Position numbers and translations under genes: made by a program | Notes under the pieces: model-generated | What the model saw: only the letters and a program-made list of their open reading frames with translations | What the model was told of the DNA's origin: nothing | Database searches by the model: none | Shown: positions 4,406 through 11,809 of the stretch, piece after piece | How the letters are laid out: every line of letters begins with the position of its first letter | Numbering within the stretch: the first letter of the stretch is position 1 | Assembly (NCBI RefSeq): GCF_001998865.1 | Contig: NZ_CP019607.1 | Location: forward strand, 1,798,001-1,862,000 | From: Tessaracoccus flavescens | Lineage (GTDB): Bacteria > Actinomycetota > Actinomycetes > Propionibacteriales > Propionibacteriaceae | Length of the DNA: 64,000 nucleotides | Direction: 5' to 3'

Positions 4406-5659
4406 GTGATCAGCGTGGAGGATTGGGCCGAGATCAGACGGCTCCACAAGTCGGAGAAGATGGCGATCAAGGCGATCGCCCGCCAGTTGGGGGTGGCGCG
4501 GAACACGGTGCGGGCGGCGCTAGCATCGGATGGTCCCCCGAAGTATGAACGAGCTCCTGCGGGGTCGGTGGTGGATGCGTTCGAGCCACAGATCCGGGCG
4601 TTGCTGTCGAGGACGCCGACGATGCCGGCCACGGTGATCGCGGAGCGGATCGGGTGGACGCGGTCGGCATCGGTGCTGCGGGGCAAGGTCGCCGAGCTGC
4701 GGCCGTTGTTCGCGCCGCCGGACCCGGCCGACCGGACCGAGTACCAGCCTGGGGAGATCGTGCAGTGTGATCTGTGGTTCCCGCCCAGGATCGTGCGGGT
4801 CGCGCCAGATGTGTGGATGGCGCCGCCGGTGCTGACCATGGTGGCGGCGTGGTCGGGGTTCATCGCCGCGGTGCTGCTGCCGTCTCGGACCACGGGGGAT
4901 CTGCTGGCGGGGATGTGGCAGCTTCTGTCTGGCAGCTTCGGTGGAGTGCCGAAGACGCTGGTGTGGGACAACGAGTCCGGTATCGGTCAGCATCGCCGCC
5001 TGACGGTGGCTGCGCGGGCGTTCGCTGGGACGTTGGGGACCCGCATCTTCCAGACCAGGCCCCGGGATCCGGAGGCCAAGGGGGTGGTGGAACGGGCCAA
5101 CGGGTATCTGCAGACGTCGTTCCTCCCGGGTCGGGAGTTCGGGTCCCCGTCCGAGTTCAACACCCAACTCGCGGCTTGGCTGCCGCGGGCGAACCAGCGG
5201 CTGCTGCGCCGCACCGGCGCTGCTCCCGCGGCACGGTTGGCAGCCGAAGTGGCGGCGATGACCGCGCTGCCACCAGTGCCGCCTGCGGTCGGGTTCACCG
5301 ACCGGATCAGGTTGGGGCGGGACTACTACGTGCGGGTGATGGGCAACGACTACTCCGTGGACCCGGCCGCCATCGGACGCTTCGTCGACATCACCTGCGA
5401 TCTGGAGCACGTCACGGTCAGCTGCGCCGGGACCGTGGTGGCCGAGCATGGGCGGTGCTGGGACCTTCGGCGCACGATCACCGACCCAGCCCATGTCGCG
5501 GCCGCCAAGCAGCTGCGCGCAGCCTTCCAGTCCCGCAACACCCCGACCACCGGGAGGGTGGAGCCAAGCCATCAGGTCGGGATGCGGTCGCTGAGTGACT
5601 ACGACGCACTGTTCAACCTGAACACTGCCACCGCGCTGTCGGTGAAGGAGGTGGCGTGA
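4406..5659 (+). CDS. istA: IS21 transposase IstA
   Basis: A 417-residue DDE transposase with an N-terminal helix-turn-helix (AIKAIARQLGVARNTVRAAL). The RNase-H core has QCDLWF (first Asp), LVWDNESGIG (second Asp) and EAKGVVERAN (Glu). The GTG start follows GAGGGAG. The stop overlaps istB, the usual coupled arrangement. It appears intact, so the element may be active. Confidence 0.93.
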   Translation: MISVEDWAEIRRLHKSEKMAIKAIARQLGVARNTVRAALASDGPPKYERAPAGSVVDAFEPQIRALLSRTPTMPATVIAERIGWTRSASVLRGKVAELRPLFAPPDPADRTEYQPGEIVQCDLWFPPRIVRVAPDVWMAPPVLTMVAAWSGFIAAVLLPSRTTGDLLAGMWQLLSGSFGGVPKTLVWDNESGIGQHRRLTVAARAFAGTLGTRIFQTRPRDPEAKGVVERANGYLQTSFLPGREFGSPSEFNTQLAAWLPRANQRLLRRTGAAPAARLAAEVAAMTALPPVPPAVGFTDRIRLGRDYYVRVMGNDYSVDPAAIGRFVDITCDLEHVTVSCAGTVVAEHGRCWDLRRTITDPAHVAAAKQLRAAFQSRNTPTTGRVEPSHQVGMRSLSDYDALFNLNTATALSVKEVA

Positions 5660-6429
5660 TGACCACCGGCAAGGACGTCGCAGCCGAGATCGCGTTCCTG
5701 GCCCGGGAGTTGAAGACCCCGGTGATCACTGAGACCTTCACCTCCCTGGGTGACCAGGCACGGGAGGCCGGCTGGTCCCACGAGGAATACCTCGCCGCGG
5801 TCCTGGGCCGGCAGGTCGCCTCCCGCACCGCCAACGGCACCAGGATGAGGATTTCGGCAGCCCACTTCCCACAGGTCAAGACCATGCAGGACTTCGTCTT
5901 CGACCACATCCCCGCCACCACCCGCGACGTGGTCGCGCACCTGGCAACTGGCACCTTCATCGCGAAACGGGAGAACGTGGTCCTGCTGGGACCACCCGGG
6001 ACCGGCAAAACCCACCTGGCGATCGCATTGGGCATCAAGGCCGCCGAAGCGTCCTACCCGGTGTTGTTCGACTCCGCGACCGGCTGGATCCACCGGCTGG
6101 CCCAAGCCCATGCCAAGGGCGGTCTCGAGCGAGAACTACGACGGCTGAACCGCTATCGACTGCTCATCATCGACGAAGTCGGATACCTGCCCCTGGACGC
6201 CGCCGCAGCAGCGTTGTTCTTCCAACTCGTCGCCTCCCGCTACGAGACCGGCTCGATCATCGTGACCTCGAACCTGCCCTTCAGCCGCTGGGGCGAGACC
6301 CTCGGCGACGACGTCGTCGCAGCCGCCACCATCGACCGGCTCGTCCACCACGCCCACGTCATCGGCCTGGACGGCGACTCCTACCGAACCCGCGCACACC
6401 GCGACACCATCAACCAGCAAACCAAGTAG
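5656..6429 (+). CDS. istB: IS21 helper ATPase IstB
   Basis: A 257-residue DnaC-like AAA+ ATPase with Walker A GPPGTGKTH (about residue 115), Walker B LLIIDEVGYLP and sensor SIIVTSNLPFSRW. In IS21 elements it regulates and targets IstA. The GTG at 5656 and the ATG at 5659 are both possible starts, with GAAGGAGGTG upstream overlapping the end of istA. No damage was seen. Confidence 0.93.
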   Translation: MMTTGKDVAAEIAFLARELKTPVITETFTSLGDQAREAGWSHEEYLAAVLGRQVASRTANGTRMRISAAHFPQVKTMQDFVFDHIPATTRDVVAHLATGTFIAKRENVVLLGPPGTGKTHLAIALGIKAAEASYPVLFDSATGWIHRLAQAHAKGGLERELRRLNRYRLLIIDEVGYLPLDAAAAALFFQLVASRYETGSIIVTSNLPFSRWGETLGDDVVAAATIDRLVHHAHVIGLDGDSYRTRAHRDTINQQTK

Positions 6430-6500: not shown

Positions 6501-7025
6501 TTGACACTCGCAAGCTCCTACGATCAACTCGCAGCAACGGCAAAGGTCGTGCACTTCCTCCCCCTGCTCGCCGAGCGCTTCGCGCGGCAGCGACTCCAAG
6601 CGGTCGCCCGGCTCGACGATCACCACAACGACGGCAAAGCCGTCGTGCTGTTCCTCTGCACCCACAATGCCGGCCGTTCCCAGATGGCGCTCGGGTTCTT
6701 CGAAGCACTTGCAGGCGACACCGCCATCGCCTGGTCTGGGGGCTCCACACCGGCAGACAGCATCAACCCGATCGCCATCGGGGCAATGCAGGAGCGGGGG
6801 GTCGACATTTCGCGGGAGTTCCCCAAGCCCTGGACTGACGAGACGGTCAGGGCCGCTGACGTCGTCATCATCATGGGGTGTGGCGACGCCTGCCCAGTCT
6901 TCCCCGGAAAGCGCTACGAGAACTGGAACGTCGATGATCCCCATGCGATGAGCATCGACACCGTTCGACGCATCCGCGACGACATCGAACGCAGAGTCCG
7001 CACTCTCATTGCCGAGTTGGACTGA
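6501..7025 (+). pseudogene. arsC: 3' fragment of the third arsenate reductase, possibly still translated
   Basis: The fragment resumes at SSYDQLAATAKVVHFLPLLAERFARQRL and contains a complete phosphatase-fold reductase domain with C-THNAG-R-S, PWTDETVRAADVVIIMGCGD and a DDPHAM acid loop. A TTG at 6501, donated by the IS21 end, is in frame, so a 174-residue protein lacking the N-terminal helices could be made. The same bases read TTGACA, a -35 consensus, but no good -10 lies at the right distance. Expression is therefore unproven. Confidence 0.75.
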
Positions 7026-7099: not shown

Positions 7100-7195
7100 T
7101 GAGCGTGAGGCTGCACAAACTAGGTCGCGACTCGACATCGCGAGGCCCACTCTCGGCTGGTCGTGGTGACTGTTGCAGCCCTGTTAAGAGGCTCT

Positions 7196-7252
7196 TCACA
7201 ATGCAGGGTGTAGGTGGGGTTTGAATCCTCCGGTTTCGAGGAGGCTTCTGGC
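7196..7252 (-). pseudogene. 3' end of the split ISL3 transposase
   Basis: On the minus strand this reads ARSLLETGGFKPHLHPAL followed by a stop inside the terminal repeat. It is the expected C terminus of the ISL3 transposase whose main body lies at 10397-11653. The two pieces join at HYTA/RSLL once the intervening RIT insertion is removed. Confidence 0.88.
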
Positions 7253-7272
7253 TATGGTATGTCGACCTCGGG

Positions 7273-7340
7273 GTTATGTTGACCGACGTCGTGGGGTGCC
7301 TGTTCCAGTGCGGGTTGGGGCCTGATCCGGTCAACATAAC
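7273..7340. repeat. RIT left-end dyad
   Basis: GTTATGTTGACC (7273-7284) and GGTCAACATAAC (7329-7340) are perfect inverted 12-mers 44 bp apart. The same pair forms the right end of the RIT element. This is the likely recombinase binding region. Confidence 0.8.
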
Positions 7341-7420
7341 GATGAATGCTCGGGTCGGGGTTCGCTTGATCTGACCGGGCGATCGTTGGGATCGCCTGGC
7401 TTCGGGTCAGGAGGACCAAG

Positions 7421-8359
7421 ATGGTGATTCATCGTGATCAGTGCCGCGCTGACGCGCGGGACGTGCTGGACGAGTTCGAAGCGTGGCTGCTGCGGGAACG
7501 GTCCACGCAAGAGGGCACCGCTGCTGCCTACACCGCCCGCGTCGCGGGGTTCGTGGAGTGGCTTCCCGCGCCGGTCGATCAGTCGCTGAAGACGCTGACT
7601 GCGGCGATGCTGACGCAGTGGGTGAACCTGGAAGCGGCACGCGGGCTGAAGGCATCGACCCTGAGCAAGCAGCTGGTGATGCTGCGCTCGTTCCTGCAGT
7701 TCTGCCACCGGTCAGGGCGGACCGGGCAGGACTTCTCCGGGGTCGTGCCTCACGCGGCGGCATGGCGGCTCTCGTCGATCCCTGACCCGGTCCCGTCCGG
7801 GACGATCGAGGCGTTGTTCGGCACTCTCGATCTGCGGTCGGCGAAGGGGATGCGCGACCGGGCGATCCTGATGTTGTTGACCGGTCTGGGCCTGCGGGCC
7901 TGCGAGATCGCCGGCCTGCGGCTGGGCGACATCGGTTGGCGCACCGGAACCCTGCGCATCCGTGGGAAGGGCGACAGGGTTGACGAGTTGCCGCTGCCCG
8001 AGGATGTCGGGCAGGCGTTGGAGGACTACGTGCTCCACGGCCGCGGAGGCCGGACTGCTGGCGAGGAAGTGTTCTGGACTGTGATCGACCCGGTCCAGCC
8101 GCTGACCGCGAACGGTGTCTGCGGGACAGTCCGGCAGATCTGCGTCAAGGCCGGGGTGGAGAAGTTCGGCCCGCACCGGCTGCGGCACACGTTCGCGACC
8201 GGGATGCTCGCCTCCGGGGCGACCCTGCAAGAGGTTCAAGGGCTGCTACGCCACGCTCACCTGCGCACGACCGCGATCTACACCAAGGTCGACAAGAACC
8301 GGCTGAGCGCACTGGTCACCGAGTGGCCGGCAACGGCATCGGGCAGGTGGTCACGATGA
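7421..8359 (+). CDS. RIT tyrosine recombinase A
   Basis: A 312-residue site-specific recombinase. The N-terminal SAM-like DNA-binding domain (LDEFEAWLLRERSTQEGTAA) is followed by the catalytic domain with GLGLRACEIAGLRLGDI (first Arg), HRLRHTFATGML (HxxR), RHAHLRTTAIYTKV (His and nucleophile Tyr). AGGAGG lies 6 bp before the ATG. The stop overlaps the next gene by ATGA, so the three recombinases are translationally coupled and probably act together. Confidence 0.92.
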   Translation: MVIHRDQCRADARDVLDEFEAWLLRERSTQEGTAAAYTARVAGFVEWLPAPVDQSLKTLTAAMLTQWVNLEAARGLKASTLSKQLVMLRSFLQFCHRSGRTGQDFSGVVPHAAAWRLSSIPDPVPSGTIEALFGTLDLRSAKGMRDRAILMLLTGLGLRACEIAGLRLGDIGWRTGTLRIRGKGDRVDELPLPEDVGQALEDYVLHGRGGRTAGEEVFWTVIDPVQPLTANGVCGTVRQICVKAGVEKFGPHRLRHTFATGMLASGATLQEVQGLLRHAHLRTTAIYTKVDKNRLSALVTEWPATASGRWSR

Positions 8360-9291
8360 ACGGCCTACGCGACCTCCTGGACGACTACCTGGCGACCCGG
8401 CGGGCACTCGGGTTCAAGCTGACCGCGCCGGGCAAGGCGCTGGACGGGTTCGTGGGCTGGATGGAAGAGGCTGGCGAGCCCACGATCCGTCGCGACCTGG
8501 TGATCGCCTGGGCGGCGCAGTTCTCTCGCGGCACGGTGCTGGAGCGGTTGAACTACGTCCGCCAGTTCGCCGAGCACGTCGCCTGGTTCGACCCCGCGAC
8601 CGAGGTCCCGATCCTCGACGGGCGCCCCTATGGCGCTCATCGCCCTCGCCCGCTGATCTTCACCAGCGACCAGATCGACACGCTGCTCGCCGCGGCGGGG
8701 AGGCTGACCCCGCAGGTCCGGGCCGCGTCCTGGCAAACACTGCTCGGGCTGCTGACGGTGACCGGGATGCGGATCAGCGAGGCCCGGAACCTCAACGACG
8801 ACGACATCACCACCGACGAGGACGCCGGTGATGGCAGCGGCTGGGCCAAGGTGACCGACACGAAGTTCGGCAAGTCCAGGCTCGTCCCGCTACACAAGTC
8901 CACGATGGACGCGATCCGCCGATACCAGCGGCTCCGGGATCGGACGTTCCCTACCCGGGCCACGACAGCGGTGTTCGTCGCCAGGCGGGGCACCCGGATC
9001 GCCCGCTCGACCGCGGGGAACACGTTCCGTGAGATCCGCGAGGCAGCCGGGCTGGCCGGCGGTCCGACCGGACCGGCGGCGAGGTTGCACGACTTCCGGC
9101 ACACGTTCGCCACGACCACTCTGATCGAGCACATCCGTGTTGGTGGTGATGTCGATCAGATGATGCCGGTCCTGTCGGCGTTCCTCGGACACGTCGGCCC
9201 GGAAGCGACCTACTGGTATCTGTCGAACACCCCGGAACTGGCAGCGGCCCTCGTCGAGCGCATCCAAGCGAACGGGGCCGGCGATGAGTGA
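8356..9291 (+). CDS. RIT tyrosine recombinase B
   Basis: A 311-residue recombinase from ATG 8356, chosen because it gives the ATGA overlap with recombinase A; a GTG at 8323 is also in frame. Catalytic signatures are GMRISEARNLNDDDI, HDFRHTFATTTL and FLGHVGPEATYWYL, so Arg, His-x-x-Arg, His and Tyr are all present. A region of about 35 residues between the first Arg motif and the HxxR motif is longer than in recombinase A. The stop overlaps recombinase C by 8 bp. Confidence 0.91.
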   Translation: MNGLRDLLDDYLATRRALGFKLTAPGKALDGFVGWMEEAGEPTIRRDLVIAWAAQFSRGTVLERLNYVRQFAEHVAWFDPATEVPILDGRPYGAHRPRPLIFTSDQIDTLLAAAGRLTPQVRAASWQTLLGLLTVTGMRISEARNLNDDDITTDEDAGDGSGWAKVTDTKFGKSRLVPLHKSTMDAIRRYQRLRDRTFPTRATTAVFVARRGTRIARSTAGNTFREIREAAGLAGGPTGPAARLHDFRHTFATTTLIEHIRVGGDVDQMMPVLSAFLGHVGPEATYWYLSNTPELAAALVERIQANGAGDE

Positions 9292-10276
9292 CCTCGCGCC
9301 GCTGCTGCAACGGTTCTTCACCGACAAGCTCGACCGGCACCTGAACGCCAGCCCGCACACGAAAGCCGCCTACGCCGACACGTTCCGGCTCCTGCTGACC
9401 TACGCCCAGCAGGCCACCGGGATCGCCCCGTCGGCGTTGACCCTGGCCGATCTGGACGCGGACCTGATCGGCGGATTCCTCCAGCATCTGGAAACCGAGC
9501 GCGGGAACTCCGCCGCGACCCGCAACGCCCGCCGGGCCGCGCTGCGGTCGTTCTTCAGCTACGCCAGCTACCGGGCACCCGACGCGATCGCGACGATCAG
9601 CCAAGTCCTCGCGATCCCCGCGAAACGCACCAAGACCACCCTCGTGTCGTTCCTGACCGCTGCCGAGGCCGAAGCCCTCATCGCAGCCCCGGACACCGGC
9701 ACCTGGTTGGGGCGCCGTGACCGGCTCCTGCTGCACCTGGGCATCCAAACCGGACTCCGCGTCAGCGAGCTGACCAGCCTGCGCGTCGACAGCATCCAGA
9801 TCGGCCCGCACAGCCAGCTCGAATGCATCGGCAAGGGCCGCAAGCAACGCGTGATCCCACTCCAGAAGAACACCGTCCAACTCCTCAACGCCTGGTTCGG
9901 CGAGCTTCCACCCGTACCGGACGGGCCACTGTTCCCGACCCACGCCGGGACACCCCTGACCAGGGCCGCCGTTGGGAAGCTCGTTACCCGCCACGCCGCG
10001 ACCGCGGCCGAGAGGTGTCCTTCGTTGACAGACAAGAACGTCACGCCGCACACGCTGCGGCACACTTGCGCAATGAGCCTGCTGCACGCCGGGATCGACA
10101 CCGCGAGCATCGCGCTCTGGCTCGGGCACGCGAACATCCAGACCACGCAGATCTACCTCCACGCCGACCTCGAACTCAAACGACGAACCCTCGAACGCGT
10201 CCCCGCGCTCGACGAGCGGCCACCAGCCCGATACAAGGCATCCGACGCTCTCATCGCGTTCCTCAAGAACCGCTGA
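9284..10276 (+). CDS. RIT tyrosine recombinase C
   Basis: A 330-residue recombinase with a XerC-like layout. The N-terminal core-binding domain (TLADLDADLIGGFLQHLE) precedes a catalytic domain with GLRVSELTSLRVDSI, HTLRHTCAMSLL, WLGHANIQTTQIYLH. All catalytic residues are seen. It overlaps recombinase B, completing the trio. A hairpin-forming end repeat begins 11 bp after its stop. Confidence 0.92.
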   Translation: MSDLAPLLQRFFTDKLDRHLNASPHTKAAYADTFRLLLTYAQQATGIAPSALTLADLDADLIGGFLQHLETERGNSAATRNARRAALRSFFSYASYRAPDAIATISQVLAIPAKRTKTTLVSFLTAAEAEALIAAPDTGTWLGRRDRLLLHLGIQTGLRVSELTSLRVDSIQIGPHSQLECIGKGRKQRVIPLQKNTVQLLNAWFGELPPVPDGPLFPTHAGTPLTRAAVGKLVTRHAATAAERCPSLTDKNVTPHTLRHTCAMSLLHAGIDTASIALWLGHANIQTTQIYLHADLELKRRTLERVPALDERPPARYKASDALIAFLKNR

Positions 10277-10286
10277 CACTGCGATG

Positions 10287-10354
10287 GTTATGTTGACCGG
10301 CTCAGCCGTTCACGCCCGCCTGGCCACGGCGCTCACCGAGCCGGTCAACATAAC
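10287..10354. repeat. RIT right-end dyad
   Basis: GTTATGTTGACC (10287-10298) and GGTCAACATAAC (10343-10354) match the left-end dyad with the same 44-bp spacing. The central sequences differ. The dyad extends on both arms into GGCTC/GAGCC-type text (GACCGGCTCA and GAGCCGGTC). Confidence 0.8.
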
Positions 10355-10373
10355 CCACAGGCCGACATACCAT

Positions 10374-10399
10374 CGCTTATGCGGAATTCCGCATAAGCG
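10374..10399. repeat. 26-bp perfect palindrome at RIT/ISL3 junction
   Basis: The half site CGCTTATGCGGAA is followed by its exact complement and centred on an EcoRI-like GAATTC. It spans the right boundary of the RIT insertion. The last bases (10397-10399) belong to the interrupted ISL3 gene. No equivalent palindrome exists at the left boundary. Confidence 0.85.
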
Positions 10400-11653
10400 G
10401 TGTAGTGGGTCAGGTTCCTAAATCCCAAGGCGATCCCGCGGAGGTGTTCGAGGCGTCCGTTGATCGCTTCGGTTGGGCCGTTGCTGGTGCCTGGGCGGTC
10501 GAAGAAGGCGAGCACGTCGGCCGCCCGTCGGTGGAGGGTCCGGCCCAGGCTGACGAGCTCGACGAGGTCTCTCGGGACGCCGGTGCTGACCGAGTCGATC
10601 ACGCCTTGAAGGAGGAACCGTCCAAGTTGCTTGTCGGGATTCCGGTAAGCCACGACGAGTCGTTGGTAGATACTCCATGTCGCGTAGACCTCGGTGTGCT
10701 GTTCGTCGGCGAACAGTGCCTCCAGTCGGGCGACTTGCTTGTCGGTGAGTAGATCGACGCCGGTGAGCAGGGTGCGGCGGGCGCGGTAGAGCGGGTCACC
10801 GGCGCGGCCAGCCCCGATGCCCGCAGGTGTCTTGCTGGACGCGCTGGCGGCAGCGGGTGAGCGCTTCGCCGGCGAGCCGGACGACGTGGAACGGGTCCAT
10901 CACCGTGGTGGCGTTGCCGAGTTCCTCGACCGCCGCGGTCTTGTAGCCGGTGAATCCGTCCATCGCGACGACCTCGATCCCCTTGCGCCAGGCTCGGGGG
11001 CGGGCGGCGAGCCACGTCTTGAACACCTGTTTCGAGCGTCCCTCGACCATGTCCAACAAGCGCGCCGGACCGGTGCCGTCCCTGGTGGGGGTGAGGTCGA
11101 TGATCACGGTGACGTATTTCTCACCACGGCGGGTATGGCGCCAGCAATGCTCGTCGACCCCGATCACCTTGACCCCGTCGAACCGGGCCAGGTCGCTGAT
11201 GAGGACGCGCTGTCCTTCTGCCAGCACGGCGTCGTTGGCGGTGTTCCACGCGACGTCGAGACCGGCGGCGATCCTGGACATGCTCAGGTGTTGGACCACA
11301 AGTCCTTCCAGTCCCCAACGCAGCGCCGCGCGCGACAGCTTCGAACGCGGCTCGGCTGCGGCACTGGTGTCTTGACGCCACACCCGCCCGCACTCGATGC
11401 ACCGATAGCGCCGGAGCCGCACGTGCAGCACGGTAGGGCGCCACCCCAGCGGGACATGCGACAAGAGTCGCACCACCGAGCCCCGGATGAGGCCCTGGCC
11501 GCCGCAGTCTCGGCACCAGTCGTCGGCGTCGACCGGGCGGCAGGCCAGGATCGCACGGTCGGGTTCGATGCGCTGGCCGGTGACTTCCAACCCGAGGCCG
11601 TCGAGACGGCAGAAACTAGTCAGATCAGGGCACGTGAAGGTAGCGTCGGACAC
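10397..11653 (-). pseudogene. ISL3-family transposase, main part, broken
   Basis: From GTG 11653 it encodes SDATFTCPDLTSFCRLDGL, a zinc-finger region (CRPVDADDWCRDCGGQG...YRCIECGRVW) and the DDE core (VIGVDEHCWRH, VVAMDGFTGYK, PFHVVRLAGEALTRCRQRVQQ). A frameshift at the C4 run 10812-10815 takes reading out of AGDPLYRARRTLLTG. The frame then continues to GFRNLTHYTA, where the RIT element cuts it. The final codons survive at 7196-7252. The element cannot make full-length transposase. Confidence 0.9.
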
Positions 11654-11809
11654 GTCGAGGTCTTCCAGATGGGGAGCGTGAGAACTTCCATCTTCGGAGG
11701 GCCTCGACCCCTTCAGCCAGCCGCCACGCCGCAACCCCGAACAGCGCTACCTACACCCTCGATTGTGAAGAGCCTGTTAAGATGCCGCCCGAACGGGTAA
11801 GGAGTGCCC

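Follow-up and report, generated by a model that had tools for sequence, protein, structure and literature searches.

The RIT element described here lies in a 64,000-nucleotide stretch of Tessaracoccus flavescens DNA (contig NZ_CP019607.1, positions 1,798,001 to 1,862,000; referred to as the window), inside the transposase gene of an insertion sequence of the ISL3 family. It is one of 12 RIT copies in the genome (3.65 Mb, two contigs), and all 12 occupy the same codon of ISL3 transposase tails of several types. They lie in both orientations, always with a 20-bp palindrome on the side of the transposase body, and the palindrome is absent from empty sites; a deletion derivative has spread to the same target. 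With a probability of about 0.7, the RIT homes to this one codon by site-specific recombination, by way of a predicted circle with two head-to-head dif-like sites that share the palindrome. RIT elements were described by Van Houdt et al. (2012, PMC3414803) as three overlapping tyrosine recombinase genes, about 3-3.5 kb in length, with inverted repeats and an overlapping palindrome, present in identical copies within a genome; comparisons with this and the other cited papers apply to excerpts of them. Cases inside a Tn6049-type transposase gene and in radC were included, the ends were variable and the repeats unconvincing.

The host ISL3 element spans positions 7190-11774 of the window and ends in 25-bp imperfect terminal inverted repeats (7190-7214 on the plus strand, 11750-11774 on the minus strand), which fall within 32-nt arms that are 91% complementary in a repeat search of the window. 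The 8-bp direct repeat TGTTAAGA bounds it at 7182-7189 and 11775-11782, and both marks of the ISL3 family, terminal inverted repeats and an 8-bp duplication, are present, as the preliminary description of this locus had stated. The gene body of the transposase is located at 10402-11734 on the minus strand, with a split reading frame, and the severed tail, RSLLETGGFKPHLHPAL followed by a stop, at 7196-7250 on the same strand; these assignments come from open reading frames, alignment and uninterrupted copies, and the transposase piece matches the ISL3 model NF033550 with 226 bits against a cut-off of 180. Between the two parts lie ritA (7421-8359, 312 aa), ritB (8356-9291, 311 aa from an ATG overlapping the ritA stop) and ritC (9284-10276, 330 aa), all on the plus strand, overlapping in tandem by 4 and 8 bp and all carrying PF00589. 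The R, HxxRH and Y motifs were read by eye in the three recombinases, whose highest-scoring models are those of XerC or XerD, with every score below cut-off; the nearest solved relative of RitC by sequence is XerD. From the left end GGTATGTCGACC (7256-7267), common to all 12 copies, to the right end GGCCGACATACC (10360-10371), both placed by copy comparison, the RIT measures 3,116 nt. Subterminal repeats of the GGTTATGTTGACC kind lie in inverted arrangement at 7272-7340 and on the right at 10286-10355, and inverted repeats with an overlapping palindrome near one end, as described for RITs, are found.

Two uninterrupted ISL3 copies in the same genome, at 1,768.5 kb (L008) and 1,646.8 kb (L009), are 100% identical to the window over the 400-bp body flank and the 61-bp distal flank. 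The empty site in both reads CACTAC-ATAGC-CAGAAG, and the uninterrupted protein reads HYIARS. Relative to these copies the window has gained 3,146 bp (7256-10401) and lost no base; 30 bp of the gain lie beyond the RIT right end and consist of a 5-bp core, the 20-bp palindrome and another 5-bp core. Read from the distal side, the order is target, core ATAGC, left end GGTATGTCGACC, genes, right end CGACATACC, core ATCGC, palindrome TTATGCGGAATTCCGCATAA, core ACCGC and transposase body. The three cores are named far (7251-7255, minus strand, GCTAT on the plus strand, identical in the uninterrupted copies), inner (10372-10376, plus strand) and outer (10397-10401, minus strand, GCGGT on the plus strand, different from the ISL3 word at that place), with the reading direction in each case toward the palindrome arm or toward the part of the target that corresponds to it. 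The palindrome occupies 10377-10396 and is missing from empty copies of four ISL3 types (1, 2, 2b and 4).

The trio of open reading frames with PF00589, the NF033550 match and the uninterrupted copies bear out the earlier view of a RIT inside an ISL3 transposase gene, and the absence of a clear long target duplication also agrees with the uninterrupted copies. The tail had been joined to HYTA at 7252/10397, which is wrong: the palindrome and the outer core at 10377-10401 are not ISL3 sequence, and the restored protein reads HYIARS, not HYTARS. A GC shared by the two junctions is indeed present; its reading as a 2-bp duplication is rejected, GC being the constant end of the apparently exchanged core words (ATAGC, ACCGC, ATCGC and GTCGC all end in it). 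The comparison with uninterrupted copies, proposed as a check for a larger rearrangement, revealed none, and the junction differs only by a short core.

A genome-wide search for the palindrome at up to three mismatches returned 12 matches, 11 of them exact, and a reversed control pattern returned none. Each of the 12 adjoins a RIT, and together they cover all strong RIT matches in the genome. Six copies hold the complete trio: the window, L051, L052, L053, L054 and L057, the last with another insertion. The other six (L055, L056, L058, L059, L060 and L061, the last with further insertions) are deletion derivatives. The comparison with other copies places every one of them at the same codon, a recurrence beyond chance, and the window, described earlier as a rare clean view, does have clean ISL3 ends and is 1 of 12 such insertions. 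The nearest uninterrupted relatives of the copies range from 100% down to about 68% identity over the body flank, and identical RIT elements occur in ISL3 types only about 70% alike. In all 12 copies the palindrome is found toward the transposase body, whichever way the RIT is turned: the left end stands beside the palindrome in five (L052, L053, L054, L056 and L060) and the right end in the other seven. Both orientations are found within one ISL3 type, namely in type 1 (the window and L055 versus L056) and in type 2 (L052 and L054 versus L058).

No difference separates the elements of the window, L052 and L053 over 3,116 nt; that of L054 has one difference and that of L051 has 44, all in ritC. 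Such identity between copies is indicative of recent activity. Among the deletion derivatives, or mini elements, five show no difference over 1,274 nt; the sixth, L061, departs from them at 4 of its first 1,200 positions. The deletion fuses ritA at about codon 37 to the matching place in the N-terminal domain of ritC, and the same open 337-aa RitA-RitC fusion gene is present in all six (as judged from their printed ends). The ritC part differs from that of the window at 75 of the last 900 bases, and the mini element is for this reason not derived from the window version. It stands at six sites whose cores differ and must therefore have been mobilised, either by complete copies or by the fusion itself. 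Identical core triples occur only in L052 (full) and L055 (mini); otherwise the triples differ between copies. L057 and L061 both hold the same extra inserted gene of 442 aa, which we take to be IS256-like. Weak RIT matches (64-65%) were also seen at 1,047 kb (L068), at 2,269 kb (in the L061 region) and perhaps at 2,087 kb; the first two have TTATGCCGA-type ends with dif-like spacing, suggestive of a second RIT family in the same genome.

The word at the empty site could be derived for 8 of the 12 copies, L051, L053, L057 and L060 having no close uninterrupted relative; it is ATAGC in type 1, GTCGC in type 2, ACCGC in type 2b and CGGCT in type 4. The far core equals this word in seven of the eight (the window, L054, L055, L056, L058, L059 and L061, the latter by its type-2 distal flank), and the exception, L052, has a small piece of type-1 sequence at that place. 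For the outer core, four copies (the window, L055, L056 and L059) depart from the empty-site word; L054 and L058 are uninformative in this respect, their far and outer cores being the same word. From these sequences the far core would usually be that of the target and the outer core would often be a foreign one, a pattern that would resemble that of SEs (strand-biased circularizing integrative elements) and Tn554. Two pedigree rules, tried by hand with L061 left out, are not claimed: an extant donor was found for 5 of 11 copies under the rule that the inner and outer cores of a daughter equal the inner and far cores of its donor, and a partner for 7 of 11 under joint inheritance of the inner and outer cores.

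In the mechanism proposed, the element would move as a circle whose joined ends read E-core-P:P-core-E, where E is the element end GGTCGACATAC, P the palindrome arm TTATGCGGAAT and the core a stretch of about 6 bp (C + NNNGC). The predicted circle junction, CGACATACC-core-TTATGCGGAATTCCGCATAA-core-GGTATGTCG, would contain two complete dif-like sites of 11-6-11 layout, head to head. The target would be polar, E'-core-P', with E' on the body side and P' on the side of the severed tail. Recombination of either circle site with it would leave E beside P' and the palindrome beside E', the placement of the palindrome being set by the target and not by the element, and both orientations would follow. 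The core would be the region of strand exchange, the target core ending as a rule by the bare element end and the brought-in core by the palindrome. Two head-to-head sites and a polar target would together account for both orientations, the fixed side, the constant palindrome and the swapping of cores. The derivative with the fused gene may be moved in trans by complete copies or may be self-sufficient, and the pairing of sites and the roles of the three enzymes are likewise proposed from the sequences.

The layout of the sites fits this proposal. Element end, core and palindrome arm together read GGTCGACATAC-CATCGC-TTATGCGGAAT, with the 11-6-11 spacing of dif, and the left-end form matches the Escherichia coli dif site at 15 of 22 arm positions. 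The right-end site of the window at 10360 matches at 14 of 22 and ties for best: 3 of 127,946 strand positions reach 14, the two others lying elsewhere in the window. A search of the genome for its own chromosomal dif gave 16 matches, 13 of them at RIT-type ends by sequence and place, with CATCATGCCCCTTATGTCCA occurring twice, and no clear dif was found among them.

Several points weigh against this reading. The dif match is only 14-15 of 22 positions, and the target arms, viewed by eye, show little likeness to E or P. In four of the eight copies (L052, L054, L058 and L061) the outer core is the empty-site word itself, and two of these, L052 and L061, contradict a clean core rule, both having the look of recombinants. 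The 12 copies are not all independent, and the evidence consists of sequence, from which the circle, the movement and the activity of the enzymes are predicted.

The strongest rival, with a small but appreciable chance of being right, is that the palindrome acts single-stranded, one strand folding into a hairpin and inserting in the manner of integron cassettes, with the choice of strand setting the side. A perfect 20-bp palindrome is able to fold, and a strand bias with a 6-bp footprint is described for SEs and Tn554, likewise equipped with several recombinases (PMC10214605); the palindrome arms here, however, fit the arms of a double-strand recombinase site around a 6-bp core. Spread of the copies by homologous recombination or gene conversion between ISL3 elements, rather than by transposition, is improbable. 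Signs of recombination do exist, in the type-1 patch of the type-2 element L052, in L061 with its type-2 distal flank and type-4 body, and in L095, a locus of another genome with distal-type flanks at both ends. Against gene conversion, the RIT lies both ways round within one ISL3 type, and the flanks of the other testable copies are type-specific up to the core. Slightly less probable again is a single RIT insertion that spread as a passenger of ISL3 by composite transposition; the intact 8-bp duplication around the whole in the window would suit it, but the core triples differ save in L052 and L055, the ISL3 hosts are of several types and the orientation varies. A palindrome already present in the target, beside which RITs insert, would be compatible with the report of palindromes at RIT ends without a stated origin (PMC3414803) and is refuted by the empty copies of types 1, 2, 2b and 4, which lack it.

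Homing by site-specific recombination has to be placed among known systems. The window trio agrees with the published RITs in gene order and overlaps, in its length and in the several identical copies per genome (PMC3414803); the assignment to the RitA, RitB and RitC families (Famint 1, 5 and 2) is putative, by order and overlaps. What differs is that the ends, the core, the target codon and a target-set side of the palindrome are defined here, and that a derivative with a single fused gene exists. A 2023 paper on SEs states that RIT transposition was never reproduced in the laboratory and lists RIT movement as untested (PMC10214605). According to the same excerpts, SEs and Tn554 resemble the present RIT in having more than one tyrosine recombinase and fixed targets, and they carry a 6-bp stretch of the donor flank to one side, with the target's own 6 bp on the other. 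They differ in gene set (intA-tfp-intB-srap; tnpABC), in that a constant palindrome is not described, and in that the side of the 6 bp follows the element ends, not the target. No gene set of the SE or Tn554 kind was found in the window element, which has three PF00589 genes and less than 100 bp from ritC to the right end (general models only, none SE-specific). GInts (PMC5385486) likewise have three integrases, circular forms and site-specific insertion at gene ends such as that of ssb; unlike the RIT here, they need a fourth gene, carry cargo and have direct imperfect repeats at their flanks. The four-gene ginABCD operon is absent, the window element having no room for a fourth gene. The coupling sequences of Tn916 and CTnDOT are 5-6 bp heterologous stretches carried from the donor to the new site; these elements have one main integrase plus Xis, are conjugative, choose targets loosely and are not known to have a palindrome. 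Xer/dif (PMC2731167) shares the two 11-bp arms around a central hexamer and XerC/XerD-like enzymes, and differs in that the second arm of the RIT is mirrored into a second site and that its partner is one codon in a transposase gene. The excerpts of the RIT literature (Van Houdt et al. 2012 and the 2023 SE paper) were found to mention neither the side rule nor the ISL3 target nor a fused derivative with one gene; the main RIT survey, Ricker et al. (2013), may hold some of them.

One scan of species genomes with RitC yielded 44 loci, 16 of which form a close set, with a best segment of no less than 74% identity to RitC (L085-L095, L101, L110, L111, L112 and L114). The ISL3 tail is the target in 12 of the 16 (L085-L091, L095, L101, L111, L112 and L114; flanks read, the ISL3 model not applied). 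These insertions come from nine groups: Propionibacterium, Tessaracoccus (four loci, one genome), Phytoactinopolyspora, Kribbella, Galbitalea, Acidipropionibacterium, a Propionibacteriaceae metagenome-assembled genome, Actinomyces and Brooklawnia. Three others (L092, L093 and L094) are inserted elsewhere, in or next to what reads as a DNA methyltransferase gene, and the target of L110 is not resolved. The palindrome was found in 7 of the 12 ISL3 insertions, always on the body side (five at the left end and two at the right; two from one genome). It was not found in the other five, of which L087 and L101 end at a contig edge, L091 is without its left part, L114 has an element that lacks its left part, and L095, with an ISL3 flank of the distal type on either side, is probably a recombinant of two insertions. 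L092 (Propionibacterium cyclohexanicum) and L093 (Bifidobacterium subtile) have the same RIT and the same flanks in the printed stretches, which may reflect recent transfer or contamination of one assembly. A search for the palindrome in 394 genomes of the class gave one positive genome, the window's own, and the matches listed for plasmid nucleotide sequences (20 records) reach no further than the ISL3 side or the final bases of the insert, with the trio covered in none.

The remaining 28 loci of the 44 are distant RITs. A perfect or near-perfect 20-bp palindrome of the form TTATG...CATAA stands near an end in L096, L097, L098, L099, L100 and L107, and a looser one in L102 and L108; it is on the left in L096, on the right in most and at both ends in L107. 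The more distant loci among the 28 show no palindrome of this kind. The two palindromes of L107 (Rhodanobacteraceae) are contained in a 62-bp inverted repeat, beyond which the flank itself forms an inverted repeat of 38 bp. L096 interrupts a gene of IS256 (profile position 216), and in L098 and L099 the palindrome lies against the RHTF motif of a tyrosine recombinase (weak scores).

RitC relatives were present in 399 plasmid records (E ≤ 1e-40), from which 20 regions were viewed: 10 of 30 listed, leaning to actinobacteria, and 10 of 24 spread-out entries; neither this sample nor the distant loci can yield a rate, and several sites were read by eye. In L171 and L172 (Rhodococcus), IS701 transposase genes are broken at profile position 87 by RITs of opposite orientation relative to the gene, both with the palindrome on the VD(D/E)TGFLKKG side, in agreement with the fixed side seen in ISL3. 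Two regions share a junction at QVDYG (profile position 118) of IS21 istA: L169, whose score of 157.6 bits narrowly misses the cut-off of 160, and L170. The target of L173 is istA at KTVRRYV. L175 interrupts what would be an AAA ATPase gene (profile position 146-147; score far below cut-off). L179 adjoins an annotated IS21 istA, and L183, L184 and L187 adjoin annotated IS66 genes; the palindrome-side flank of L183 and L187 reads KG(F/H)(G/D)GL on the other strand, presumably a TnpB motif of IS66. L180 and L182 lie in the HExxH sequence of ArdC-like genes by reading, with support from the annotation for L182. The target is unresolved in the other eight regions (L174, L176, L177, L178, L181, L185, L186 and L188).

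A wider generalization is offered tentatively, with the odds somewhat against it: RITs may be a large class of homing parasites of mobile elements, each lineage keeping to a single codon within a strongly conserved motif of some mobility or plasmid gene (the ISL3 tail, IS21 IstA at QVDYG or KTVRRYV, IS256 IVH, IS701 DTGF, perhaps IS66 TnpB and the HExxH of ArdC-type genes). The mechanism would be common to them all: two Xer-type sites, head to head at the circle junction and with the palindrome in common, would leave the orientation free and fix the polarity to the target. A single fused recombinase could replace, or be carried by, the trio.

Five copies (the window, L052, L053, L054 and L056) were read across the occupied codon. 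In each of them the frame at the end of the transposase continues across the palindrome, enters the element end and terminates in GGTTATGTTGA, with tails such as AYAEFRISYGMSTSGLC whichever element end adjoins; in the window, 19 transposase residues are exchanged for 18 new ones. The window frame is in addition split into 316 and 184 aa by a 4-bp length difference from the open copy L010, and the uninterrupted look-alikes L008 and L009 are likewise split (316 and 185 aa). These three ISL3 copies, 100% alike where compared, share the same split, and L010, at 99%, is open; the split copies may owe their movement to a transposase supplied in trans, or translation may pass over the break. Elsewhere in the window, an IS21-like istA/istB pair was read at 4406-6429, just upstream of an arsenate-reductase-like gene (6501-7025). 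The motifs TTATCCACA and TTGTGCACA, which we take to be DnaA-box-like, are clustered at the window start (50-90).

RITs are a widespread and little-studied class, and 12 insertions in one genome, set against their empty sites, define the ends, the core, the target and the polarity of one of them base by base. The same data give a precise prediction for the circle junction, and the fixed side of the palindrome hints at how RITs move. If the wider generalization is right, RITs would occupy the genes of other mobile elements at the codons least able to change.

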